Source: Halorubrum salinum (lineage in GTDB: Archaea; Halobacteriota; Halobacteria; Halobacteriales; Haloferacaceae). From it: a stretch of 64,000 nt of DNA. The translations under genes were made by a program, and so were the position numbers. Positions 5,522 through 43,107 of this stretch are shown here, piece after piece; within the stretch, counting starts at the first letter, position 1; every line of letters starts with the position of its first letter. Below the pieces are notes generated by a model, which had not been told where the DNA came from, searched no databases, and saw nothing but the letters and a program-made list of their open reading frames with translations. The stretch lies in NCBI RefSeq assembly GCF_024494575.1, contig NZ_JANHDO010000002.1:434001-498000 (forward strand), given 5' to 3'.

Positions 5522-6019
5522 CTACAGCAGGAACGTCTCTTCTTCTTCGGCGAGGTCGACGAACTCGTCTGCGGCCTCGATCAGTTCGTCGGCGGCGGAG
5601 TTGCCGAACCCCATCGCCTCGACGCGCACGCCCTCGTGGCGGAGATGCGTGCAGAGGCGCGCGAAGTCGCCGTCGCCGGTACAGATCACGACGGTGTCGA
5701 CGTGGCTCGCGAGCGAGACGGCGTCGAGGCTCATCCCGAGGTCCCAGTCGGCCTTCTTCGACCCGTCGGCGAACGTCTTGATGTCCTTGATCTTCGTCTC
5801 GAAGCCGATCTCGCGGAGGGCCTCGAAGAAGCTCTCCTCCTCGGGCGAGTCGGCGCGGATCACGTACGCGATGGCGCGGATGAGCGCCCGGTCGGCGACG
5901 GCCTCCTCCAGCAGGCCGGAGTAGTCGATGTTCCGAGAGTAGACGCTCTGTGCTGAGTGATACAGGTTCTGTGAATCCGCGAGTACCGCGACGCGCTGGT
6001 CGGGATGGACCTCGTTCAT
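5522..6019 (-). CDS. NYN-domain (PIN-like) ribonuclease, LabA/DUF88 type
   Basis: 165 aa, essentially one NYN domain. The acidic active-site set is present: D15 in LADSQN, D91 and D93 in KADWDLGMSLDA with D99 behind, and GDGDF at 115-119. Proteins of this family are metal-dependent RNases or RNA-binding regulators; the substrate here is unknown. The tail is very acidic (EEEETFLL). It is divergent from the substrate-binding lipoprotein gene at 6190 and convergent with dapE, so it is a single-gene unit. Confidence 0.85.
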   Translation of the reverse strand: MNEVHPDQRVAVLADSQNLYHSAQSVYSRNIDYSGLLEEAVADRALIRAIAYVIRADSPEEESFFEALREIGFETKIKDIKTFADGSKKADWDLGMSLDAVSLASHVDTVVICTGDGDFARLCTHLRHEGVRVEAMGFGNSAADELIEAADEFVDLAEEEETFLL

Positions 6020-6160
6020 ACCGGCGTTTCCACGCGACGGGTTACGGCTTTTGGGATCTGTGGCGCGTCGCTCGGCGTCGGTCGCGTCTGGAGGTAGTCA
6101 CGTCCGGAGGCGGTCGCGTCTCCGTCCGCGAGGACGTCTCTCCGTCGCGTATCTGAACCG

Positions 6161-6170
6161 TTTTATATAC
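6161..6170 (+). promoter_or_regulatory. strong TATA box before the ABC substrate-binding gene
   Basis: TTTTATATAC centred about 25 bp before the ATG at 6190. It is close to the haloarchaeal TATA consensus and implies a leaderless or nearly leaderless mRNA. The rest of the 170-bp divergent region with the NYN gene shows no clear operator. Confidence 0.6.
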
Positions 6171-6189
6171 ATGTGCGCTGAGTGAGCGA

Positions 6190-8085
6190 ATGAGACGTGA
6201 ACGCGGCGGTGTGGGCGCAGATCGCGGAGTTGGACGACGGCGGTACCTCTCGACGCTTTCGGGCGGCGCGGCGGCGGCCCTCGCGGGCTGTTCGAGCCTC
6301 GGATTCGGCGCGGCCGACGCCGACACGGCGACGTACGCGACGGCCGTCACGGAGCCGATCGAGACCCTCAACCCGATATACAACGCCGGGAACGCCGGCG
6401 GCAACGCGATCGCTCGCGTGATCGATCCCGGGTACGCGTTCGACGGCGACGACGAGTTCGTCCCCCTGCTGTACGACCTGTCCAGCGACGACGGCCGCGA
6501 GTGGACGCTCCGGCTGCGCGACGGGCTGCGATTCAGCGACCCGTACGGGCCCGTGACCGCGGACGACCTCGCGTACCTCGTCCGCGAGGTCCACCAGCGC
6601 GACTGGGCGGCGTCGCCGGCGGCGGCCCACTGGCGGGGCGTCTCGCTCTCGGTCGTCGATGCGCGCACGCTTCGCGTCCGACTCCCGCGACCGCGACTGC
6701 TGTGGCCCGAGAGCTACGAGCCGCTCGTGTATCCCGTTCCACGGGCCCTCCTCGAACCGTACGTCGAGTCGCGTGACGCCGACGGGCTCCGCACGGATCG
6801 GACGCTCGCTCACCTCGGGTTCGCGGGGAACCTCGGCCCGTACGTTCTCGACGAGTGGCGACCGGGAGAGGTCGTTCGGTTCACCCGCAACGACCGGTAC
6901 TACCTCGGCGTAGCCGAGGCCGACTCGCCGGACGGAGCGGTCTCGTCGGCGTTCGACGGCGCTCCGCACTTCGACGCCGCGGCGGTTCGCGTGCTCCCCG
7001 ACCGCGCGGCCCGCCTCGACGCGTTCGACGCGGGCGCGATCGACAGCGCGGCGATTCCGCCCGACCGAGTCGGCGCGTACCGCGACGACGGCGGAGTCAC
7101 GATCGACCGCGTTCCGCAGGCGCACGCCGAGCGTATCGCGGTCAACATGCGCGACAACGGGTGGACCGCGGGACCCGGAAACCTGTTCAGACACCGCTCG
7201 TTTCGGCAGGCGCTGTCCGCCGCGATCGACGCGGACGCGCTCGTCGAGTCGGCGTTTCGGGGCGCGGCCACCCCACAGTTCACGTGGCAGCCGCCGTTCG
7301 CCGAGTTCCACCCGCCGGAGGACGCGCTCCCCCGCTTCGGATCCGGCGACCGGCACGGCCGCGGGTACGCCCGCGACCTCGCGCGGCGAGCGTTCGACCG
7401 GTCGACGCACGACTACGGGTTCGACGGCGACGACATGCTCACGCCGGACGGCGACCGCGTCTCGCTGGGTCTGTACCGCCGCGAGGACGCCGAGAGCCGC
7501 CGGGTCGCTGCCTTCGTCGCCGACGAGCTCGACGCGAACCTCGGCATCGACGTGGCCGTCGAGGGGACCACCCGCGAGCGCTTCGCGTCTGCGCACTACG
7601 CGGTCGACGACCGACCGAGACCGGAGCGCGACGCCGACGGCGACCTCGCCGCCGTGCCGGACGCGCTGGTCGACGAAGTGCGGAGCGAACGGGTCGCGTG
7701 GACGCGGCCGACGGCGGTCAATCCCGGTCCTCGGAGCGTCACCGGAGACGCTCCGTGGGACATGGAAGTCGTGTTCCGGTCGAACACGCATCCGCGGGAC
7801 CCGCTCGCCACCGCAGCGCGCTTCGACGGGGCGACCGCGCCGTACAACGCCGTCGGGTACTACCCCGAGTTCGACGCCGCGGCGCTCTTCGAGCGCGCTC
7901 GTAGCGCGTCCGATCGAGCGGCGCTCGCCGCGACGCTTTCCGAGCTCTTCACCGCGATCGCGCGGGCGCAACCGTACGTGACGTTGGCGTTTCCGGACGC
8001 CACGATCGGCTACCGCACCGGGCTCTCCGGGCCGATCGAGCGGTTCTCGAACGGATGGGACCGAGCGGCGTGGCGGTACGTGTGA
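6190..8085 (+). CDS. ABC transporter substrate-binding lipoprotein, peptide/nickel type (SBP family 5)
   Basis: 631-aa extracellular binding protein. The N-terminus has a twin-arginine signal (RRRYLST at 16-22), a short hydrophobic stretch and a lipobox with Cys at residue 34 (LAGC), so it is Tat-exported and lipid-anchored. The body matches DppA/OppA-like family 5 (AVTEPIETLNPIYN; PVTADDLAYLVREV; NLGPYVLDEW). Ligand is unknown: oligopeptides and nickel complexes are both possible. The permease and ATPase genes usually paired with this family are not adjacent; the next gene is convergent, so it is an orphan or acts with a distant transporter. Confidence 0.85.
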   Translation: MRRERGGVGADRGVGRRRYLSTLSGGAAAALAGCSSLGFGAADADTATYATAVTEPIETLNPIYNAGNAGGNAIARVIDPGYAFDGDDEFVPLLYDLSSDDGREWTLRLRDGLRFSDPYGPVTADDLAYLVREVHQRDWAASPAAAHWRGVSLSVVDARTLRVRLPRPRLLWPESYEPLVYPVPRALLEPYVESRDADGLRTDRTLAHLGFAGNLGPYVLDEWRPGEVVRFTRNDRYYLGVAEADSPDGAVSSAFDGAPHFDAAAVRVLPDRAARLDAFDAGAIDSAAIPPDRVGAYRDDGGVTIDRVPQAHAERIAVNMRDNGWTAGPGNLFRHRSFRQALSAAIDADALVESAFRGAATPQFTWQPPFAEFHPPEDALPRFGSGDRHGRGYARDLARRAFDRSTHDYGFDGDDMLTPDGDRVSLGLYRREDAESRRVAAFVADELDANLGIDVAVEGTTRERFASAHYAVDDRPRPERDADGDLAAVPDALVDEVRSERVAWTRPTAVNPGPRSVTGDAPWDMEVVFRSNTHPRDPLATAARFDGATAPYNAVGYYPEFDAAALFERARSASDRAALAATLSELFTAIARAQPYVTLAFPDATIGYRTGLSGPIERFSNGWDRAAWRYV

Positions 8086-8089
8086 CCGG

Positions 8090-8842
8090 TCACCGGAACG
8101 CGATAGACCCGAGATCGACCGATCGAGGCCTGTCGCCCGTCTCGTCTGTGGACTCCGAGATCTCGACTCCAGAGGTCGACTCACCGGCGAGCGCCACGGT
8201 CGCCCCGACCGAAAGCGGGGCGACGAGTCCCGCGGCCACCGCCCGCGGGTCCGAGAGATCCCCGCCGAACGCCACGCGCGACCCGGCGGTCAGGTCGTGT
8301 TTCTCGATCACCGTCGCGGCCGCGTCGAGGAGCGCACCGTGCGAGACGTCACCGTCTCCCGCGTCTCTGTCCCCCCCACCGTCGTCCGCGCCGCAGATCA
8401 CCGCATCGTCCGGGGCCACCGAACTCGGCGGAGTCGCCGGGTTTTCGCTCCACAGCTCCTGTTCCCAGTGAGTCGTCTCCGGACGCTCCGGCGGGCCGCC
8501 GAACGCGACGAGGTTCGTCCCCGGTCTCGGGTCGACCCCCGGCTCGTCGTCGACGGCCACGAGCACGACGCGATCGCCGGCGGCGATTCCCGCTACCGGA
8601 TCGAACCGAACCGGCGCGCCGAGGCGGGCGGCACCGAGAAACGCGAGCGTGGCGTGCCACTCGGGGGCGGGATCGACGGCGACGACCGACTCCTCGCGTG
8701 CGCCGAGGTAGCGCAACACGTTCGCCGCCTTGTACGCGTTGGTGATCAGGTCGTGGTACGTGCGCTCGCGGCCGTCGGCCGTGACGAGCGCCGTGTCGCG
8801 GCTCCGCCGGTCGCGTGCGAGAAGGTCGCCGACGACGTCCAT
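8090..8842 (-). CDS. short acyl-CoA synthetase/AMP-ligase-like protein without P-loop
   Basis: 250 aa. The first about 85 residues resemble the start of an ANL adenylating enzyme (LVTADGRERTYHDLITNAYKAANVL; HATLAFLGAARLGAPVRFDP). A second piece near 170-215 resembles the region after the AMP-binding loop (LTAGSRVAFGGDL; GLVAPLSVGATVAL). The loop itself, normally Ser/Thr/Gly-rich and ending in Lys, is replaced by an acidic stretch (GADDGGGDRDAGDGD), and the whole C-terminal half of a normal 500-600-aa ligase is missing. Adenylation looks unlikely; a binding or regulatory role is inferred. The frame is clean, so it is not obviously a recent pseudogene. Confidence 0.6.
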   Translation of the reverse strand: MDVVGDLLARDRRSRDTALVTADGRERTYHDLITNAYKAANVLRYLGAREESVVAVDPAPEWHATLAFLGAARLGAPVRFDPVAGIAAGDRVVLVAVDDEPGVDPRPGTNLVAFGGPPERPETTHWEQELWSENPATPPSSVAPDDAVICGADDGGGDRDAGDGDVSHGALLDAAATVIEKHDLTAGSRVAFGGDLSDPRAVAAGLVAPLSVGATVALAGESTSGVEISESTDETGDRPRSVDLGSIAFR

Positions 8843-8897
8843 GTCCGAGTCCAGACGGGGGAGCGATAAAAGCGCGCGGCTCCGCGCAGTTTGCGTC

Positions 8898-10016
8898 TCA
8901 CACGTCGAACTGCTCGAACTCGTCCATCGTCATGTCGGCGTAGTTGACGAGCCAGTCTTCCGCCGGCGAGTCCGGCCGGACGTAGACGTACACGTAGTCA
9001 CCGTCGAGCACCGTGCTCACGCCGAGCTGCTCGTCTTTGATGACGCGCTTGTTGGTGTCGATGGCGACGTCGACGAGCCCCTCTAGGTCGTCGACGAGGA
9101 CCGTCGCCTCGTACTCCCGCTCCGAGGGGAACGTCCCGCGCGTGATCCACTCGGAGAACTCCTGTTCCTGCTGGTGGACGTGGAGTATCTCGCGCTCGTC
9201 CGGCGAGAGGTCGACGAGTCCGCGGCGGCGAGCGACCAGCAGGCCGCCCGTCCCGGCGAGCCCGACGACGAACACGAGCACCGACCCGACCGCTTCGACC
9301 CCGCTGGGTTCGACCACGCGCTCGACGGTGTCGGTCCGCTGGCCGCTCTCGTCTATCGTCTCGGTTTCGAGGACGCGAAGCGTCTGCTGGGTGACCGTGA
9401 TCGGCATCGCGCTCTCGTAGGTGGCGCTCACGTCTCGACCGGACAGCGTGCCCTCGACGCTCGACGCGGCGACGACCCGGATCTCGATAGTACCGGCGGC
9501 GCCGAGCTGACGTTCGATCGTGTCGATGTTCGCGAAGACCTCGTCGATGTCGACAGTCGCGTCGACGGTGTGGTTCCCGTCCGCGGTGAGTCCGTCGGCG
9601 CTCCCGCTCGCGAGGGGTTCCGCGTACTGCCAGAGGACGTCTTCCCCCTCGACGCCGCGGTACACGAGACGGACGTCGGTCGTCACGTCGACCGCGCCCT
9701 CGGAGGCGGTGTGTGCGTACCTGTAGGTCACGTCGAGCTCCTCCGCGAGGTTCACGTAGTACACCGGCCGGTTCCGGACGCGCTCGCCCTCCTCGAACAC
9801 CAGCGAGTCGTTGACGACGACGGAGCTGTGATCGAACGCGGTCGACTCGGTCCACTGGCCGACGGTCACCGACTCCCGCTCGACGTCCGGGTTCGCGTGG
9901 ACCTGATAGCTCCACCACCCGCCGACGGCCGCGAGAAGCACCGCCGCGATCAAAAGCACCGAGAGCCACTGTTCGAGGAACGCCCGGACCCGTATCGACC
10001 GATCGACGTCGCTCAC
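8898..10016 (-). CDS. DUF5305-type membrane protein
   Basis: 372 aa with two membrane segments: near residues 16-34 (LSVLLIAAVLLAAVGGWWSY) and near 240-262 (VGSVLVFVVGLAGTGGLLVA). Between them is an exported beta-rich domain (about 200 aa, many Val/Thr/Tyr), and behind is a cytosolic tail of about 105 aa. This layout matches haloarchaeal DUF5305 proteins, which are often found with signal-peptidase-like or envelope genes. No enzymatic motif is visible. It sits on the minus strand between the degenerate AMP-ligase and the RecA-like protein, with a gap of about 100 bp upstream, so cotranscription is possible. Confidence 0.6.
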   Translation of the reverse strand: MSDVDRSIRVRAFLEQWLSVLLIAAVLLAAVGGWWSYQVHANPDVERESVTVGQWTESTAFDHSSVVVNDSLVFEEGERVRNRPVYYVNLAEELDVTYRYAHTASEGAVDVTTDVRLVYRGVEGEDVLWQYAEPLASGSADGLTADGNHTVDATVDIDEVFANIDTIERQLGAAGTIEIRVVAASSVEGTLSGRDVSATYESAMPITVTQQTLRVLETETIDESGQRTDTVERVVEPSGVEAVGSVLVFVVGLAGTGGLLVARRRGLVDLSPDEREILHVHQQEQEFSEWITRGTFPSEREYEATVLVDDLEGLVDVAIDTNKRVIKDEQLGVSTVLDGDYVYVYVRPDSPAEDWLVNYADMTMDEFEQFDV

Positions 10017-34021: not shown

Positions 34022-35044
34022 ATGGAGTGTGACAAGTGCGGGGCGGACGCGATCCACCACGCCGCCTACTCCGGGGCGCATCTCTGTGGCGAGCACCTCC
34101 GCCGGTCGGTCGAGAAGCGCGTGAAACGCCGGGTCCGCGAGGACGGACTGCTCGATCCGGACGCCACGCCCGACGACCCCGACCGGTGGGTGATCGGCCT
34201 CTCGGGCGGGAAAGACAGCGTCGCGCTCACGCAGATTCTGGACGACGTGTTCGGGCAGGACCCTCGCGTCGAGATGCTGGCGTTAACGATCCACGAGGGG
34301 ATCGAGGGGTACCGCGACGCCAGCCTCGACGCCTGCGTCGAACTGGCCGAGGACCTCTCGCTGCGCCACGAGGTCGTCTCCTACGAGGAGGAGTTCGGCG
34401 TTCAGATGGACGACGTGGTCGAGAGCGACCCAGAGAACATGGCCGCCTGCGCGTACTGCGGCGTGTTCCGCCGCGACCTGCTCGAAACCTACGCCGCGGA
34501 GTTCGACGCCGACAAGCTGCTCACCGGCCACAACCTCGACGACGAGGCTCAGACGGCGATGATGAACTTCCTCGAAGGCGACGTCCGACAGGTGGCGAAA
34601 CACTTCGACGCCTCGCTCGGCCCGTTCGACGAGCGCGAGGGGACGGACGAGTTCGTCCCGCGCGCCAAGCCGCTGCGCGACGTGCCCGAAAAGGAGATCG
34701 CACTGTACTGTCACGTCCGCGACCTCCCGACGCACATGGCGGAGTGTCCCCACGCCGAGGAGGCGTACCGAGGCGAGATCCAGTCGACGATCCACGAGCT
34801 AGAGGAGAACCACCCCGGCGCGCGCCACTCGATCATGGCGGGCTACGAGGAGCTGTCGGCGCTCGCGGCCGAGGCGTATCGCGGGAGCGGGGAGGGAGAG
34901 TCGACCGGCGACGGCGAACGCGACGCGGAGGACGGAACCGTCTCTTCTCCCGACCTCTCCGAGTGCGAGCGCTGCGGCTCGAAGACGAGCCGCGACGTGT
35001 GCCGGAAGTGCCGGCTGCTGGCGTCGATCGAGGCGGCGACCTGA
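34022..35044 (+). CDS. ncsA: tRNA 2-thiolation protein NcsA (TtuA/Ncs6-like)
   Basis: 340 aa adenylyltransferase/thiotransferase that thiolates U34 of tRNA Lys/Glu/Gln with SAMP-type ubiquitin-like sulfur carriers. An N-terminal zinc knuckle (CDKCG, LCGEH), PP-loop SGGKDS at 61-66, catalytic cysteines CAYC (143, 146), the tRNA-binding block GHNLDDEAQTAMMNFLEGD, MAECPHAEEAYRG, and a C-terminal zinc ribbon (CERCG, CRKC). An acidic linker precedes the last ribbon. In Haloferax this gene lies beside ftsZ2, from memory; here about 8 kb separates the two. Confidence 0.9.
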   Translation: MECDKCGADAIHHAAYSGAHLCGEHLRRSVEKRVKRRVREDGLLDPDATPDDPDRWVIGLSGGKDSVALTQILDDVFGQDPRVEMLALTIHEGIEGYRDASLDACVELAEDLSLRHEVVSYEEEFGVQMDDVVESDPENMAACAYCGVFRRDLLETYAAEFDADKLLTGHNLDDEAQTAMMNFLEGDVRQVAKHFDASLGPFDEREGTDEFVPRAKPLRDVPEKEIALYCHVRDLPTHMAECPHAEEAYRGEIQSTIHELEENHPGARHSIMAGYEELSALAAEAYRGSGEGESTGDGERDAEDGTVSSPDLSECERCGSKTSRDVCRKCRLLASIEAAT

Positions 35045-35063: not shown

Positions 35064-35121
35064 GACCAGCGCCCGGATCACGTCTTACCGCGGCTCCGAG
35101 TCGACCAGCCCGCGAATCACG
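35064..35121. repeat. imperfect direct repeat in the ncsA/methyltransferase gap
   Basis: GACCAGCGCCCGGATCACG (35064-35082) and GACCAGCCCGCGAATCACG (35103-35121) differ at a few positions, period 39. On the minus strand both read as similar short peptides (VIRALVG, VIRGLVD) ending soon in stops. It looks like the decayed, duplicated tail of a gene. Confidence 0.5.
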
Positions 35122-36166
35122 CCCCGCCGTCGACGCGGCCGAGCAGATCGAGTTGGTGCGTGAGATAGACGAGTTCTCCGGCGTCGACCTGCTCGCGACG
35201 ATCGCGGAGCCACGCGTCGAGGTCGGCCGCGGAGAGGTCGACCGCCTCCGTCTCGCCTGTTCTCTGTCGCTTTCCTTCCCGCCGCTCTGCGGCGATCACC
35301 TCGCCGACCGCCTCCTCGACGGTGTCGAGGATGTGCCGGAGGAAGAACGCCTCGTCGCCGGGATAACCGTCTCCGCTGTCGCCGGGGCGCACCACCCAGT
35401 CGGAGCCGGCGACGCCGAGGAGCGTCGACTCGTCGGCCTCGCGTAACCGTCCGAGCGCGTCCCCGCCGGCGCGGCTGTTCCCCCCCGGCTTCTCGTCCAT
35501 GTGCCGGTGGTACAGCCGCTCGACCGCTCGGTCGTCGGGACGGGACGGGCGGAAGCGCGTCCCACCGTCGAAGGTGATCGGGAAGTAGTACGTGCCACCG
35601 GGCGCGAGCGCGCCGAGCAACGGGTCGAGCCGATCGAGCCCGAGCACGTCGAGAAGCGCCGTGCCGATCACGGCGTCCCACTCCCCGAGGGTCGATTCGG
35701 CGTAGTCGACGGCGTCGGCCGCGACGGGCTCGACTTCGACGGTGCGCGTCGGCGACTCGACGACGAACGCACCCCCGTCTGCGGCCGAATCACCGTCCGC
35801 GGACGGACCGGCGTCGACGACCGACACGTCGGACCTCCCGGCCGCCCACTCGCAGAGGAAGGGGCCGAGCCCGTCGAGCGTGTCGCCGTCGCGGTCGACG
35901 GCGACGTATCTGGTCCGTCCCGGCGGGAGCACCTCCCAGTCGATCAGCCGAGCGATCATGGTCCCGACGCCGGCTCCGACCTCCAGAACCCGGAGGGGAC
36001 CGGACGCGCGCGCGGACCGTTCCGTCTCCGTCGCGCGCTCGGTCCGGTGCGCTCCCGTCGCGCGCTCGGCCAGCCGCTCGCGGAGCAGCCCGACGAGCCG
36101 CCGGTCGAGCGCCCGGTCGTCGACGGACCGCTTCGCTCGGAGGTACCGCCGGAACGACCCCGTCAC
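35117..36166 (-). CDS. class I SAM-dependent methyltransferase-like protein
   Basis: 349 aa from a GTG at 36166 that overlaps the glycosyltransferase stop (GTGA). The N-terminal 60 residues are helical and basic (FRRYLRAKRSVDDRALDRRL). The SAM loop is VLEVGAGVGTMIARL near 75-88, with YVAVDRDGDTLDGL behind it, and GEWDAVIGTALLDVLGLDRL and LLGALAPGGTYYFPITFDG as later strands. An acidic insertion (DAGPSADGDSAADGG) interrupts the fold. The C-terminal 100 residues are helical, family-specific. Methyl acceptor unknown. Last gene of a three-gene coupled operon with PTPS and GT4. Confidence 0.75.
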   Translation of the reverse strand: MTGSFRRYLRAKRSVDDRALDRRLVGLLRERLAERATGAHRTERATETERSARASGPLRVLEVGAGVGTMIARLIDWEVLPPGRTRYVAVDRDGDTLDGLGPFLCEWAAGRSDVSVVDAGPSADGDSAADGGAFVVESPTRTVEVEPVAADAVDYAESTLGEWDAVIGTALLDVLGLDRLDPLLGALAPGGTYYFPITFDGGTRFRPSRPDDRAVERLYHRHMDEKPGGNSRAGGDALGRLREADESTLLGVAGSDWVVRPGDSGDGYPGDEAFFLRHILDTVEEAVGEVIAAERREGKRQRTGETEAVDLSAADLDAWLRDRREQVDAGELVYLTHQLDLLGRVDGGA

Positions 36167-37299
36167 GTCGGAACCTCCGCGGCCGGCGGGTTCCGGCGGT
36201 CCGTCACGTCCCCCTCGGCGACGGCCGCGAGGTGTCGCCGGACCCGCGCCGTCGTCTCTCTCCAGTCCGGGTGCCGCTCGTACCGCCGTCTGGCGGCTCG
36301 ACTCATCTCGGCCAGCCGGTCCGGATCGCTCGCGAGCGCGTCGAGGGCGTCGGCGACCCCTCCCCGGTCGTCGGGGGTGATTAGGAACCCGGTCTCTCCG
36401 TCCGTGACGACGTCGCTCGCGCCGCCGGCGCGCGAGGCGACGGCCGGCAGGCCGAACGCCATCCCCTCCAGATAGACGATCCCGAACCCCTCGTACCGAG
36501 AGGGGACGGAGAGGACGTGGCTCTCCCGCAGCGTCGCCGCCAGCTCGTCGTCCGAGAGCCGCCCGGCGAACCGGACGCGCTCCCCGAGCCCCCGTCGGTC
36601 GACGAGCCGGCGCACCTCGGCGACGTGTCCCTCGTCGACCGCTCGGCCGACGACGGTGAGATCGATCTCGGCGTCCGCGGCGGCGACCCCCTCGACCAGC
36701 GTGTCGAGCCCCTTCCGCGGCGCGAGATTCCCGACGAACGCGACTCGAAGCGGGCGCTCGGCCGCGCGGTCGGCGATCCGATCTGCGAGCGCCCCTCGGT
36801 CGTCGCCGCCGGCGGAATCGCCGAGGCCGTCCGGCCCCTCGAACCGGTCGCCGGCTGGCGGCGCGACCACCGCGGCGTCCGGGTCGACGCCGAGGTCCGT
36901 CACCGCCTCGCGGGTGGCCGCGCTGTTGCAGACGACGCCGTCGAGCGTGTCGAGGTACCGTCGCTCGATCGATCGATACAGCGGCGAGAGCCGCCGCGGC
37001 TCGCTGGCGCGCAGGTGGTGAACGATACCCACGATCGGGTACGACAGGGCGCGATTGTGCCGCCACAGCGACGGGTGTGCGAGCTCGTCTTGCAGCATCA
37101 CGTCGACGTCGACGCGGAGGCGATCCCGGAACCGGGGAGAGAGGCCGTCGAGCAGCCCGCGCGGGTACGAGGGCCACGGGAGTTCGATCACCTCGACTTC
37201 GTCTCCCCACCGCCGGAGTTCTTCGACGACCTTCCGGTCGTAGCGGAACCCTCCCGACCGCTCGTCGAGGCTCCCGTACAGCGTGAGGCCGACCTTCAT
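36163..37299 (-). CDS. family 4 glycosyltransferase
   Basis: 378 aa, GT-B fold. Start at ATG 37299 overlaps the PTPS stop by 4 bp. N-terminal acceptor half: MKVGLTLYGSLDERSGGFRYD, then VGIVHHLRA and VVCNSAATREAVTDLG. C-terminal donor half: RVAFVGNLAPRKGLDTLVEGV, VRFAGRLSDDEL and the nucleotide-sugar motif PSRYEGFGIVYLEGMAFGLP with the two Glu of the EX7E pattern. It probably transfers a sugar to a small molecule, lipid or protein; the PTPS and methyltransferase partners make a glycosylated pterin an interesting possibility but not a demonstrated one. Confidence 0.87.
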   Translation of the reverse strand: MKVGLTLYGSLDERSGGFRYDRKVVEELRRWGDEVEVIELPWPSYPRGLLDGLSPRFRDRLRVDVDVMLQDELAHPSLWRHNRALSYPIVGIVHHLRASEPRRLSPLYRSIERRYLDTLDGVVCNSAATREAVTDLGVDPDAAVVAPPAGDRFEGPDGLGDSAGGDDRGALADRIADRAAERPLRVAFVGNLAPRKGLDTLVEGVAAADAEIDLTVVGRAVDEGHVAEVRRLVDRRGLGERVRFAGRLSDDELAATLRESHVLSVPSRYEGFGIVYLEGMAFGLPAVASRAGGASDVVTDGETGFLITPDDRGGVADALDALASDPDRLAEMSRAARRRYERHPDWRETTARVRRHLAAVAEGDVTDRRNPPAAEVPT

Positions 37300-37673
37300 A
37301 CGGGCGCGTCGTACGTCGCCGCGGCGTCGTCGTCTTCCCACACGGTCACCGCCAGCTCGCGCACGGTGTCGTCGGTCACGGCCGCGGTCACGCGCTCGAA
37401 GACGACGCGGGCGAAGCGCTCGACGCTCGGGTTGTGTCCCTCGAACTCGGGGAGGTCGTTGAGCAGCGCGTCGCGGTAGCGGTCGGCGACCCCGGCGAGT
37501 GCGGCGTCCGCGTCGTCGATGTCGACGAGGTAGCCGTGCTCGTTCAGCGCGGGGCCGCGGAACGTGAGCTTCACCTCGAAGTGATGCGAGTGCGGGACGC
37601 TCTCCGGTCCCCCGTCGACGACCGTGAGGTAGTGCTGGGCCACGAAGTCGGTCGTGACCGTCGTCGCGTACAT
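37296..37673 (-). CDS. 6-pyruvoyl-tetrahydropterin synthase-family protein (Glu in place of catalytic Cys)
   Basis: 125 aa from ATG 37673; a TATA-like CTTTAGG about 27 bp upstream supports this start over 37697. The T-fold PTPS/QueD signature is present: zinc His in FVAQHYL, then PESVPHSHHFEVKLTFRG, NEHGYLVDIDD, GHNPSVERFARVVFERV and the catalytic-Glu-like VTVWEDDDA. In QueD/PTPS a Cys sits four residues before the HxH pair; here that residue is Glu (ESVPHSH), the pattern of PTPS-III proteins that form 6-hydroxymethyl-dihydropterin. First gene of an operon coupled to a glycosyltransferase and methyltransferase. Confidence 0.82.
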   Translation of the reverse strand: MYATTVTTDFVAQHYLTVVDGGPESVPHSHHFEVKLTFRGPALNEHGYLVDIDDADAALAGVADRYRDALLNDLPEFEGHNPSVERFARVVFERVTAAVTDDTVRELAVTVWEDDDAAATYDAPV

Positions 37674-37743: not shown

Positions 37744-38634
37744 TCACAGATATCCGAGCGCGCGAAGCCGGTCTCGCTCCGTCTCGCCGTCCCCGTGAAC
37801 CCGCGACACCGGCAGGGGTTCCGGCGGCGCGAGCGCCGGCTCGCGCGTCCCCTCGTCTTCGCCCTCGACCGTCGCCCACGGGACCGCGAGCAGCGCGGGG
37901 ACCGGCGCGTACATCGGGTGGCCGTACAGCCCCCACTCGCCGAAACAATTCCCGTGGTCGGCGGTGACCGCGATCCGGCCGTCGACGTTTCTCGCGAGCG
38001 CCGCGACCTCGCCGAGGACGTGTCGGAGGTTCGCCTCGTAGGCGTCCCACACGCGGTCGGCCTCCACCTCGCCGCGCCGGAGCAGCACCCACGGGTTTCC
38101 CTCGTTGCTCTCCTCGCCGGTCCGCGCCAGTCCGTCGTCGCCGGCGATCGGGTCCGGAACGAACGGGTGGTGCGGCTGCATGTAGTGTGCGACGAGCCGG
38201 TCGGGGTCGCGGGCGCGGGCGAGCGCGATCGCCCGGTCGGTCACGGCCGCGGCCGGCACGGTTCCCACCTCTGTGTCCCACGCGTACTTCCAGACCTCGT
38301 CGAGCGCGGCGAACGCGTCCGCCTCCAGATACCGGTCCGTCCACGTGTTCCCGGTGACCATGGCGGTCTGCGCGGTCTCCGGGTGTCCCTCGAACGTCTT
38401 CTCTAACCACTCCGAGGAGGAACTGCCCACGGACCGGACCGTCTCGACGGGGCCGAGGAAGTCGTACTCGGACGCCACGGACCGGAGCAGGTCGACCCGG
38501 CAGGCGTCGAGCACGACCAGCACGTCCCACTCGCGCTCGAAGACGTTCGTCCCGTAGGAGAGCCGCCGGGCGACCGCCTGCAGGGCGCGGAGGGCGGCGG
38601 TGCCGAGGCGGCTCATCCCGGGCTCTCGGTGCAC
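37744..38634 (-). CDS. alkaline-phosphatase/sulfatase-superfamily protein
   Basis: 296 aa if GTG 38634 is used; a TATA-like ACTAAACC 27 bp upstream favours it over ATG 38616. The fold begins with WDVLVVLDACRVDLLRSVA, where metal-binding Asp and a Cys or Ser/Thr nucleophile are expected; here the residues are DACR. Later motifs: VTGNTWTDRYL, DRLVAHYMQPHHPFVPDP and the metal site VTADHGNCFGEWGLYGHP. Related haloarchaeal proteins are annotated as sulfatase-like or phosphoglyceromutase-like; substrate unknown. It is divergent from the fusion gene at 38709. Confidence 0.75.
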   Translation of the reverse strand: MHREPGMSRLGTAALRALQAVARRLSYGTNVFEREWDVLVVLDACRVDLLRSVASEYDFLGPVETVRSVGSSSSEWLEKTFEGHPETAQTAMVTGNTWTDRYLEADAFAALDEVWKYAWDTEVGTVPAAAVTDRAIALARARDPDRLVAHYMQPHHPFVPDPIAGDDGLARTGEESNEGNPWVLLRRGEVEADRVWDAYEANLRHVLGEVAALARNVDGRIAVTADHGNCFGEWGLYGHPMYAPVPALLAVPWATVEGEDEGTREPALAPPEPLPVSRVHGDGETERDRLRALGYL

Positions 38635-40825: not shown

Positions 40826-41212
40826 ATGGCGACGACTACATCACAACAGCCGACCGCCGGCGTCGAGTCGTTGAACGGCCTCCACTGGGTGGGGATCCTC
40901 GCGGCTCTGGTCTCCGCGGCCGTCCACCTCCTCTTGGGCGCGCGGATGGTCCCCTCGGCGCTCGGGATCAGCTTCGTCCTCGCCGGGTTCGGGTTCCTCG
41001 GCGGGATCGTCCTCTTGGTTCGCGGGTACCGCCGCCGGGCGCTGTACGGGGTCGGCATCGCGTTCACGCTCGTGCAGATACTCCTATGGTACGTCGTCAA
41101 CTTCGCCGGCGGCGGTCGGGCGTTTCCCGCGGACGTGGGGACGCTCGGCGCGGTCGACAAGCTCGCACAGGTCGTGTTGGTGGCGGTGCTCGTCGTCCTG
41201 CTGCGTCGGTAG
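40826..41212 (+). CDS. four-helix membrane protein (DUF7475-like)
   Basis: 128 aa, almost wholly hydrophobic: LHWVGILAALVSAAVHLLLG, ALGISFVLAGFGFLGGIVLLV, ALYGVGIAFTLVQILLWYVVN and KLAQVVLVAVLVVLL. It has four transmembrane helices and a Gln/Thr-rich N-terminus; it resembles a common haloarchaeal family without assigned function. The start is ATG 40826, positioned by a TATA box; an in-frame open region further upstream has no promoter. It is followed after 2 bp by the phosphatidyltransferase, so they are one operon. Confidence 0.72.
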   Translation: MATTTSQQPTAGVESLNGLHWVGILAALVSAAVHLLLGARMVPSALGISFVLAGFGFLGGIVLLVRGYRRRALYGVGIAFTLVQILLWYVVNFAGGGRAFPADVGTLGAVDKLAQVVLVAVLVVLLRR

Positions 41213-41214
41213 TC

Positions 41215-42063
41215 GTGTCGGACCGAACCTCCCGGCGAGCGCTCGGCGGCCGAGTCGGCGGCGGCTCCGCGGCGCTCGCGGGACTGATCTTTCCGCCGCT
41301 TTCCGGCGTCGCGCTCGCGGTCACCCTGTCGACGGCGTTCCCGGCGACAGGCCGTTTGGGCGTCCCGCCGGCGGCCGTCGCCGGGCTCTGTCTGGCGGGC
41401 CAGCTCTGGTACGTCGCGTTCGGACTCGGCGGCGTCGACGCGGTCCGAACGCCCGCGGACGAATCGACGGACGGGTCGACAGAGCGCGGCGACGGTCCCC
41501 GCCTTTTCGGCCTCGCGAACGGCGTGACGCTCGTCCGCGGCGCGCTCTACGCCGCCGTCGCCGGCCTCGCCGTCGCGTCCCCCGACGCGGGCGTCGCGTG
41601 GGTCGCGGCGACGGGATACGGCGTCGGCGTCCTCTTCGACGGGCTCGACGGGCGCGTCGCCAGAACGATCGGGACCGAGACAGACATCGGGAGACGTCTC
41701 GACATGGCGTACGACACGTTCGGGTTCGTCGCGGCACCGCTCGTCGCGGTCGCCTGGGGGATCCTCCCCGTCTGGTACCTCTCTCTTTCCGCCGCGCGCT
41801 ACGTCTTCCGCGGGGCCGTCGGGCTGCGCCGCGCCCGTGGCCGCCCGGTCTTCGACCTCCCCGACAGCGACCTCGGTAAGTACCTGGCGGGCGTACAGAT
41901 GATCTTCCTCACCGTCGCGCTCGTCCCCGCCGCGCCGGATCACCTCGTCCGGGCGGCCGCGCCGGTCGTCCTCGCGCCCTCGCTCGGCGTGTTCGCTCGC
42001 GACTACCTCGTCGTCAGCGGACGGGTGTCGCGCCGCGCCGTGACCCTCGGCGGCCCGGAGTAG
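41215..42063 (+). CDS. CDP-alcohol phosphatidyltransferase-family protein
   Basis: 282 aa from GTG 41215, 2 bp after the membrane protein. The CDP-OH motif DGxxAR(8)GxxxDxxxD is complete: DGRVAR at 145-150, G159, D163, D167 (GRRLDMAYD). Around six helices, with an N-terminal pair not usual for the minimal family and an internal hydrophilic loop (DESTDGSTERGDG). Enzymes of this family attach inositol, glycerol or serine to CDP-archaeol; which alcohol is used here is unknown. The neighbourhood with a sugar oxidoreductase, GT and phosphatase-like protein suggests modified polar lipid or glycoconjugate synthesis. Confidence 0.85.
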   Translation: MSDRTSRRALGGRVGGGSAALAGLIFPPLSGVALAVTLSTAFPATGRLGVPPAAVAGLCLAGQLWYVAFGLGGVDAVRTPADESTDGSTERGDGPRLFGLANGVTLVRGALYAAVAGLAVASPDAGVAWVAATGYGVGVLFDGLDGRVARTIGTETDIGRRLDMAYDTFGFVAAPLVAVAWGILPVWYLSLSAARYVFRGAVGLRRARGRPVFDLPDSDLGKYLAGVQMIFLTVALVPAAPDHLVRAAAPVVLAPSLGVFARDYLVVSGRVSRRAVTLGGPE

Positions 42064-42108: not shown

Positions 42109-43107
42109 TCACGACTCGCCGTACTCTAAGATTACCTGTACCGCGTCGTCGGACCGCGCGTCGAGAAGTTCGTAGGCCTCCGGTGCGCGCTCGAACGGGA
42201 TCCGATGCGTGATCAGCGCGTCGGCGTCGATCCGATCGAGCCAGCCGAGCGCCTCGTCCATCCGGCGCTCGCGGTCCCACCGCCCCCGCAGCGACGGACT
42301 GATAGTCGACACCTGACTGGAGATCAGGTCGATCCGGTCGCGGTGGAACCGCCCGCCGAGATCGACCGGCGCGCGCTTCGCGCCGTACCACGAGCCGACG
42401 ACGATCCGCGAGTCGTAGCCGACGGCACCGATCGCGTCGTCGAGCGTGCTCGGCCGTCCGGACAGTTCGATCGCGAGGTCCGCGTCGGAGACCGCGTCGC
42501 CGACGGCTTTCGGCGTCTCAGTCCGGTCGGCACCCATACCGACGGCGAGGTCGCGCCGGCGCTCGACGGGATCGACCACGACGAGCGAGGAGAGCGGGAA
42601 CGACGCGAGCAGCCGGGTGACACAGAGGCCGATGACGCCGGCCCCGAAGACGACGACCCGCTCGCCGAGCCGCGGGGCCGCGTCGAGGACGAGATTCGTC
42701 GCCGTCTCGACGGACGGGAGGAGCGCGCCGACCGCGGGTTCGGTCCCGTCGGGAAGCGCGACCACGTCGTCGGGTTCGGCCACGAACCGCGTCTGGTGCG
42801 GGACGAACCCGAACACCGACCGGCCGAGCCAGTCCGCGTCGACGTCCTCACCGACCGCGTCGACGACGCCGCTCGCGGCGTAGCCGTACCGGAGCGGATA
42901 CGAGAACTCCCCGTCGAGCGCGTCGAGCGTCTCGTCGACGGGCACGTCCGACGGCGTCTGGTCCCGGTAGACGAGCAGCTCCGTGCCGGCGCTTATCGCC
43001 GACGCACGCGTGTCCACGCGGAGTTCGTCGGCGGTCGGATCCCCGACGTCGGCCTCGCGGACCTCGACCGCCTTCGGTCCCGTGAACGCGAGCGCGGCGT
43101 CCGTCAT
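42109..43107 (-). CDS. medium-chain dehydrogenase/reductase lacking zinc ligands
   Basis: 332 aa from ATG 43107 (an open frame to 43191 lacks conserved residues). MDR fold: GroES-like N-terminal part (VDTRASAISAGTELLVYRDQ; YPLRYGYAASGVVDAVGED), Rossmann loop VVFGAGVIGLCVTRLLA, and a C-terminal lid. The catalytic-zinc residues of alcohol dehydrogenases are absent: the CGxCGTD position reads AISAGTE, and GHE reads GYA; no structural-zinc cysteine cluster. It resembles the BchC-like branch. Substrate unknown; annotated in related genomes as zinc-binding dehydrogenase, a name not supported by these residues. Confidence 0.8.
   Translation of the reverse strand: MTDAALAFTGPKAVEVREADVGDPTADELRVDTRASAISAGTELLVYRDQTPSDVPVDETLDALDGEFSYPLRYGYAASGVVDAVGEDVDADWLGRSVFGFVPHQTRFVAEPDDVVALPDGTEPAVGALLPSVETATNLVLDAAPRLGERVVVFGAGVIGLCVTRLLASFPLSSLVVVDPVERRRDLAVGMGADRTETPKAVGDAVSDADLAIELSGRPSTLDDAIGAVGYDSRIVVGSWYGAKRAPVDLGGRFHRDRIDLISSQVSTISPSLRGRWDRERRMDEALGWLDRIDADALITHRIPFERAPEAYELLDARSDDAVQVILEYGES

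Follow-up and report, generated by a model that had tools for sequence, protein, structure and literature searches.

Among PTPS-family (T-fold) proteins, the published signatures are CxxxHGH for PTPS-I/QueD, CxxxxxHGH for PTPS-II and ExxHGH for PTPS-III (PMC5041015), and the Plasmodium PTPS uses a Glu (PMC2229834). Here we describe a PTPS-family gene of Halorubrum salinum and its two operon partners, which encode a family 4 glycosyltransferase (GT4) and a methyltransferase (MTase). The genes lie in a stretch of 64,000 nucleotides (contig NZ_JANHDO010000002.1, positions 434,001 to 498,000), which was analyzed at its full length and is referred to as the window. Comparisons across haloarchaea and bacteria make it fairly likely that the operon is the core of a biosynthetic cluster that is conserved in both domains and branches from guanosine triphosphate (GTP) at the early riboflavin/pterin level.

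Two other described systems invite comparison. Archaeal riboflavin synthesis starts with ArfA, which is GTP cyclohydrolase III (GCH III), and with ArfB and ArfC. Archaeal GCH III releases formamidopyrimidine (FAPy); ArfB has the creatininase fold and ArfC the RibD_C fold. In Streptomyces coelicolor, the Met120 switch of SCO6655 is said, in work by Spoonamore from 2006, to lead likewise to the release of FAPy with the formyl group retained. SCO6655 and SCO6650 are known proteins to which, to our knowledge, no pathway has been assigned.

The operon consists of the following genes.

35117-36166, minus strand: class I S-adenosylmethionine-dependent MTase, last gene of the operon; GTG start, 349 amino acids
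36163-37299, minus strand: GT4; ATG start, 378 amino acids; PF00534, 1.5e-35
37296-37673, minus strand: PTPS-family (T-fold) protein; ATG start, 125 amino acids; PF01242, 1.6e-26

A check of the open reading frames (ORFs) confirmed that all three are intact on the minus strand at 35117-37673. The genes overlap by four bases, as ATGA between PTPS and GT4 and as GTGA between GT4 and MTase. The coupling by overlapping start and stop codons, the coordinates and the reading frames thus agree with a sequence-only reading made earlier. The same reading placed the limits of the unit at 35117-37673, which holds for the core genes and not for the extent, since the real unit is larger and reaches out to 43107 in the window. 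The GT4 contains EGFGIVYLE, with the E-x7-E pattern. The window MTase has no Pfam match of its own; it carries the motif VLEVGAGVGTM, and its homologues at the same cluster position match Methyltransf_25.

We surveyed 64 haloarchaeal loci with the cluster PTPS, sampled across the class and from annotated plasmids, and counted genes within approximately 10 kb, a distance that misses genes located elsewhere. The most conserved partner of PTPS was an alcohol dehydrogenase-like (ADH-like) protein, present in 59 loci and located directly before PTPS in 46 of them. The MTase was found in 52 loci, a CDP-alcohol phosphatidyltransferase in 43, a GT4 of the adjacent type in 40, a Gfo/Idh-aldo/keto reductase (AKR) family protein in 20 and an alkaline phosphatase (AlkP)-like protein in 13. 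The small membrane protein DUF7475 was present in 40 loci, 38 of which have the phosphatidyltransferase (38 of the 43 phosphatidyltransferase loci). Of the 40 loci having both PTPS and GT4, 38 have the two genes directly side by side; the same holds for GT4 and MTase in 32 of 35, with a four-base overlap in 25 of those 32. Because these adjacencies recur across the sampled haloarchaea, the arrangement of the core genes is not due to chance. Dozens of haloarchaeal loci show the full order ADH-PTPS-GT4-MTase.

The survey also points to the entry of the pathway. GCH III was encoded within the same distance of PTPS in 22 of the 64 loci, as compared to about 0.5 expected; the expectation assumes one or two copies per genome, and because the loci are related, a formal probability should not be read at face value. 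Wherever both GCH III and ADH occur, in 21 loci, they are on the same strand, and in 16 of these loci they are directly adjacent. At least 12 genomes have no GCH III besides the cluster copy, which in these genomes is presumably a working enzyme that also feeds riboflavin synthesis.

The same gene order was observed in bacteria. In a single-sequence search, the best solved relative of the window PTPS was SCO6650 (PDB 3d7j, 4.5e-6), which is labelled 'uncharacterized' in the PDB. A PTPS-profile search of the PDB gave 1.9e-42 for SCO6650, but the profile contains Streptomyces rows, and only the single-sequence result counts. The order ADH-PTPS-GT4-MTase was found in Streptomyces, Rhizobium, Agrobacterium, Peteryoungia, Neorhizobium, Methylosinus, Thiodictyon and Microbacterium; in Palleronia and on a Rhodobacteraceae plasmid the order is ADH-PTPS-MTase, and no GT4 gene adjoins it. 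Each of the 65 full-length loci of Streptomyces contains ADH, PTPS, GT4, MTase, CDP-alcohol phosphatidyltransferase, GTP cyclohydrolase II (GCH II) and creatininase. Outside Streptomyces, where the sample consists of about ten plasmid records, three rhizobial plasmids combine ADH-PTPS-GT4-MTase with GCH II, RibD_C, cytochrome b561, a phosphatidyltransferase, a flippase-like protein and a sulfatase. Thiodictyon, Methylosinus, Microbacterium, Neorhizobium, Palleronia and the Rhodobacteraceae plasmid contain subsets of the full gene set. The CDP-alcohol phosphatidyltransferase is present in most bacterial clusters, and a putative flippase (LPG_synthase_TM) in the rhizobial and Microbacterium clusters.

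Proteins of the bacterial clusters are 33-38% (ADH) and 27-33% (GT4) identical to those of the window, and the similarity of the MTase is weak but detectable. For the CDP-alcohol phosphatidyltransferase, the identity is 28-37% between bacterial loci and haloarchaeal loci other than the window. Between the haloarchaeal and the bacterial ADH proteins, 34 columns are invariant, and the GHE zinc motif is absent from both. The best bacterial matches of the haloarchaeal ADH in the plasmid collection were nearly all in cluster records, the exceptions being Nonomuraea and Rhodococcus. The Streptomyces loci orthologous to the SCO6650/SCO6655 neighbourhood share with the haloarchaeal loci the order ADH-PTPS-GT4-MTase and the CDP-alcohol phosphatidyltransferase. 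They differ in the PTPS, where SCO6650 and the other bacterial members align without the Cys and without one of the zinc His, and in the cyclohydrolase, which is a Met-switch GCH II as opposed to the unrelated GCH III of haloarchaea. Gene content, order, conservation and catalytic motifs were observed directly at these loci, and the cluster is almost certainly a real conserved unit.

The cyclohydrolases of the bacterial loci fall into two types. At the position of E. coli Tyr105, Met is present in 75 of 76 GCH II of bacterial loci, and those 75 are from Streptomyces and occur with creatininase. GCH II is also found in the Rhizobium, Palleronia, Agrobacterium and Peteryoungia loci, and these four proteins have Tyr at that position and occur with RibD_C, not with creatininase. 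This pattern, which covers few independent lineages, would be expected if cyclohydrolases that form FAPy depended on a deformylase of the creatininase fold and those of the Tyr type did not. As in the archaeal riboflavin pathway, GCH III and relatives with the ArfB fold (creatininase) and the ArfC fold (RibD_C) accompany the cluster in various taxa. The difference is that their neighbours here are PTPS, GT4, MTase and a lipid-type transferase, and that the annotated cluster loci showed neither a lumazine synthase nor a riboflavin synthase.

Beyond the operon, the cluster in the window comprises five further genes.

37744-38616, minus strand: AlkP/sulfatase-superfamily-like protein, accessory; weak PF00884 match, with invariant D, H and TADHG-type residues
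38733-40751, plus strand: fusion of Gfo/Idh/MocA and AKR domains (PF01408 and PF00248), accessory; start set by homology
40826-41212, plus strand: small membrane protein DUF7475 (PF24287, 5.9e-18), directly before the phosphatidyltransferase gene
41215-42063, plus strand: CDP-alcohol phosphatidyltransferase (PF01066, 4e-17); motif DGLDGRVAR..G..D..D intact
42109-43107, minus strand: relative of medium-chain ADH (ADH-like, BchC-like), without the GHE zinc motif

The ADH gene is on the same strand as PTPS, 4.4 kb away, displaced to the far side of the oxidoreductase fusion and of the phosphatidyltransferase. A reading of the motif D-x2-D-G-x2-A-R-x8-G-x3-D-x3-D confirmed that it is complete in the window phosphatidyltransferase. 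The sequence-only reading had named a phosphatase/sulfatase-like neighbour; the gene is there at 37744-38616, but its only match to Sulfatase is below threshold (0.005 in the window and 2.4e-4 in an orthologue). A profile search of the PDB gave no match for this protein, its profile showed no significant similarity to rhizobial sulfatases, and a single-sequence AlphaFold model was poor (pLDDT 37). On the other side of the operon, the gene for the tRNA 2-thiolation protein ncsA (34022-35044; NF047749, 588 bits) is convergent with it, and no functional link between the two was seen.

The window PTPS contains the stretch PESVPHSH, in which a Glu aligns with the catalytic Cys of QueD. This substitution had been noted from the sequence and is upheld by the alignment; the motif ExxxHSH is found in the window protein and in 57 of 63 haloarchaeal homologues. 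The putative zinc ligands H14, H28 and H30 are all kept in the window and haloarchaeal proteins. E85 and E113 are invariant in the cluster PTPS, and in PTPS enzymes the Glu residues at these positions hold the pteridine ring. The catalytic Asp-His is missing, with LDHHYLN of QueD, the one triad compared, aligned with YRDALLND. In a large tree, built like the other PTPS trees from short sequences with long branches, the haloarchaeal and bacterial cluster proteins fall on one side of a 100/99 branch that separates them from QueD; a reduced tree shows the haloarchaeal proteins, the bacterial proteins and QueD as three separate groups. Judging from the residues, the cluster PTPS would seem to belong neither to PTPS-I nor to PTPS-III.

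The likeness to PTPS-III that the sequence-only reading proposed would make the protein an enzyme forming 6-hydroxymethyl-dihydropterin for a modified folate or halopterin. Like PTPS-III (enzymes of Plasmodium and bacteria and some archaeal enzymes of folate/methanopterin synthesis), it has a Glu instead of the Cys near the zinc site, where the zinc His are kept, and a Glu is what the Plasmodium enzyme uses (PMC2229834). However, the spacing is ExxxHSH and not ExxHGH (PMC5041015), the Asp-His is lost, and the genomic partners differ, being GCH II or III rather than GCH I. PTPS-III was rejected on the motif, and we consider such an enzyme quite improbable. A role as QueD for archaeosine could be argued from the shared T-fold family, zinc His and ring-binding Glu, and from the finding that the window PTPS is the sole PF01242 protein in its genome. 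Yet the protein lacks CxxxHGH and Asp-His, scores 47.7 bits against the QueD model TIGR03367 (NCBIfam; cut-off 89.25) and would be partnerless as QueD, because the window genome has no QueE-like protein and a search for QueC gave only weak PP-loop matches. Of 114 sampled haloarchaeal genomes with the cluster PTPS, 79 contain one or more additional matches to PF01242. Twenty haloarchaeal PTPS proteins of this other type, some taken from genomes with the cluster and some from genomes lacking it, all contained CxxxHGH and Asp-His, as in canonical QueD, and 13 of the 20 genes directly adjoin a radical-SAM, QueE-like ORF. The recurrent neighbours of the cluster PTPS in the 64 loci are instead ADH, GT4 and MTase, not queE or queC. 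Grouping with QueD of queuosine/archaeosine loci was thus not observed; the haloarchaeal QueDs form a separate paralogue across the 100/99 branch. The motif, the score, the tree, the paralogues and the partners all speak against the QueD/archaeosine role, which was rejected and is exceedingly improbable.

Two observations concern QueD itself. The window genome is apparently without QueD, a QueE-like protein and a true QueC, and may depend on preQ0 salvage for archaeosine. Two other haloarchaeal genomes encode a further PTPS of the bacterial QueD type (CQNLHGH), which in the large tree clusters with E. coli QueD and not with haloarchaeal QueD.

In the pathway that we propose, a GTP cyclohydrolase (GCH III in haloarchaea, encoded elsewhere in the window genome; GCH II in bacteria) would open the purine, and the ribotide so formed would be a formamido- or diamino-pyrimidine. 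We predict FAPy, or FAPy without its formyl group, as the precursor, because two unrelated cyclohydrolases reported to release FAPy adjoin the same core genes. Gene co-location strongly suggests a GTP-derived substrate, and we regard such a precursor as probable. Going by the zinc and ring-binding residues kept in haloarchaea, the PTPS-like T-fold protein would bind and rework the pyrimidine or pteridine, by a chemistry other than that of PTPS-I, II or III. Based on their families, the zinc-less dehydrogenase and the Gfo/Idh-AKR fusion may adjust a side chain or a sugar by oxidation or reduction. The GT4 would add a sugar and the MTase a methyl group, and the CDP-alcohol phosphatidyltransferase would attach the product to a phospholipid. 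The step order and the lipid link are moderately suggested by the gene content. The product is predicted to be a pteridine- or pyrimidine-type compound that carries a sugar and a methyl group and is probably linked to a lipid; that it is a lipid-linked pteridine in particular is a tentative proposal. It is possible, if rather doubtful, that a class of compound not described before, a glycosylated and methylated pteridine (or ring-opened pyrimidine) that derives from FAPy and is anchored in the membrane, is common to haloarchaea and bacteria and might serve as a lipid-soluble redox cofactor. The rhizobial cytochrome b561 and flippase genes are compatible with such a cofactor. A unit combining a pterin-type T-fold protein with glycosylation and methylation and distinct from QueD, as foreseen in the sequence-only reading of a glycosylated and methylated pterin operon, is supported; the PTPS-III assignment of that reading is not, and it had missed the wider cluster, with its ADH-like protein, CDP-alcohol phosphatidyltransferase and GTP cyclohydrolases, and the presence in bacteria. 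From sequence comparison, we would file the cluster as a variant of GTP-cyclohydrolase-initiated pteridine-type biosynthesis.

Several points weigh against this proposal. No GCH III is located near the cluster in 42 of the 64 haloarchaeal loci, including the window, whose genome encodes GCH III on contig 1. Creatininase is present in only three haloarchaeal loci, RibD_C, flippase and cytochrome b561 were looked for in these loci and not found, and the cluster creatininase is nearer to MftE than to ArfB. The haloarchaeal and bacterial PTPS are only approximately 30% identical, and in a reduced tree the haloarchaeal, bacterial and QueD groups form three separate sets whose order is not given. 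The lipid link, itself moderately suggested, leans mainly on one enzyme family. Finally, the bacterial PTPS lacks one zinc His, so the protein may be non-catalytic.

This last point, together with the loss of the Cys, would suit a PTPS-like protein that is a non-catalytic pterin sensor or scaffold, in a cluster making a surface glycolipid without a GTP-derived part. The GT4, the CDP-alcohol phosphatidyltransferase, the AlkP-like protein and the Gfo/Idh-AKR fusion all fit glycolipid synthesis. We consider this explanation unlikely, as two GTP cyclohydrolases of unrelated folds and creatininase or RibD_C co-locate with the cluster across both domains, and the haloarchaeal PTPS keeps its three zinc His and the ring-binding Glu. 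The patchy presence of the cluster, including on plasmids and megaplasmids, and tailoring by GT4 and MTase could also indicate a diffusible glycosylated secondary metabolite of nucleoside or pyrimidine type, neither lipid-linked nor a cofactor. The CDP-alcohol phosphatidyltransferase, which is encoded at 43 of the 64 haloarchaeal loci and at the majority of the bacterial loci, and the putative flippase (LPG_synthase_TM) of the rhizobial and Microbacterium clusters make such a metabolite distinctly unlikely.

A literature search on halopterins, the SCO6650-6655 region, the haloarchaeal cluster and the cross-domain pattern found no description in openly accessible papers. With the proposed GTP-derived pathway, what looked like a three-gene oddity becomes a widespread biosynthetic cluster of two domains with a specific entry point. 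The role of SCO6650 and SCO6655, a long-standing question, becomes directly testable in model Streptomyces and haloarchaea, and the label '6-carboxytetrahydropterin synthase' has been given to many proteins that are not QueD.

Broken or incomplete versions of the cluster were also encountered. Plasmid pAArc1-02 of Natrarchaeobaculum sulfurireducens (6243-9461 of the retrieved stretch) contains GCH IIa and ADH, after which come a short unknown gene and then an IS5 transposase; no PTPS was found there, and the cluster is truncated or decayed. One genome of the same genus as the window contains two cluster versions, one with GCH III and an intact PTPS, and another that resembles the cluster of the window and has its own PTPS frame split in two. 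On pNG700 of Haloarcula marismortui, the cluster PTPS is broken, with a disrupted frame, and unannotated (6001-6374 of the retrieved stretch), and its neighbours ADH, GT4 and MTase are still annotated. In the close relative H. sinaiiensis, the cluster PTPS is intact.

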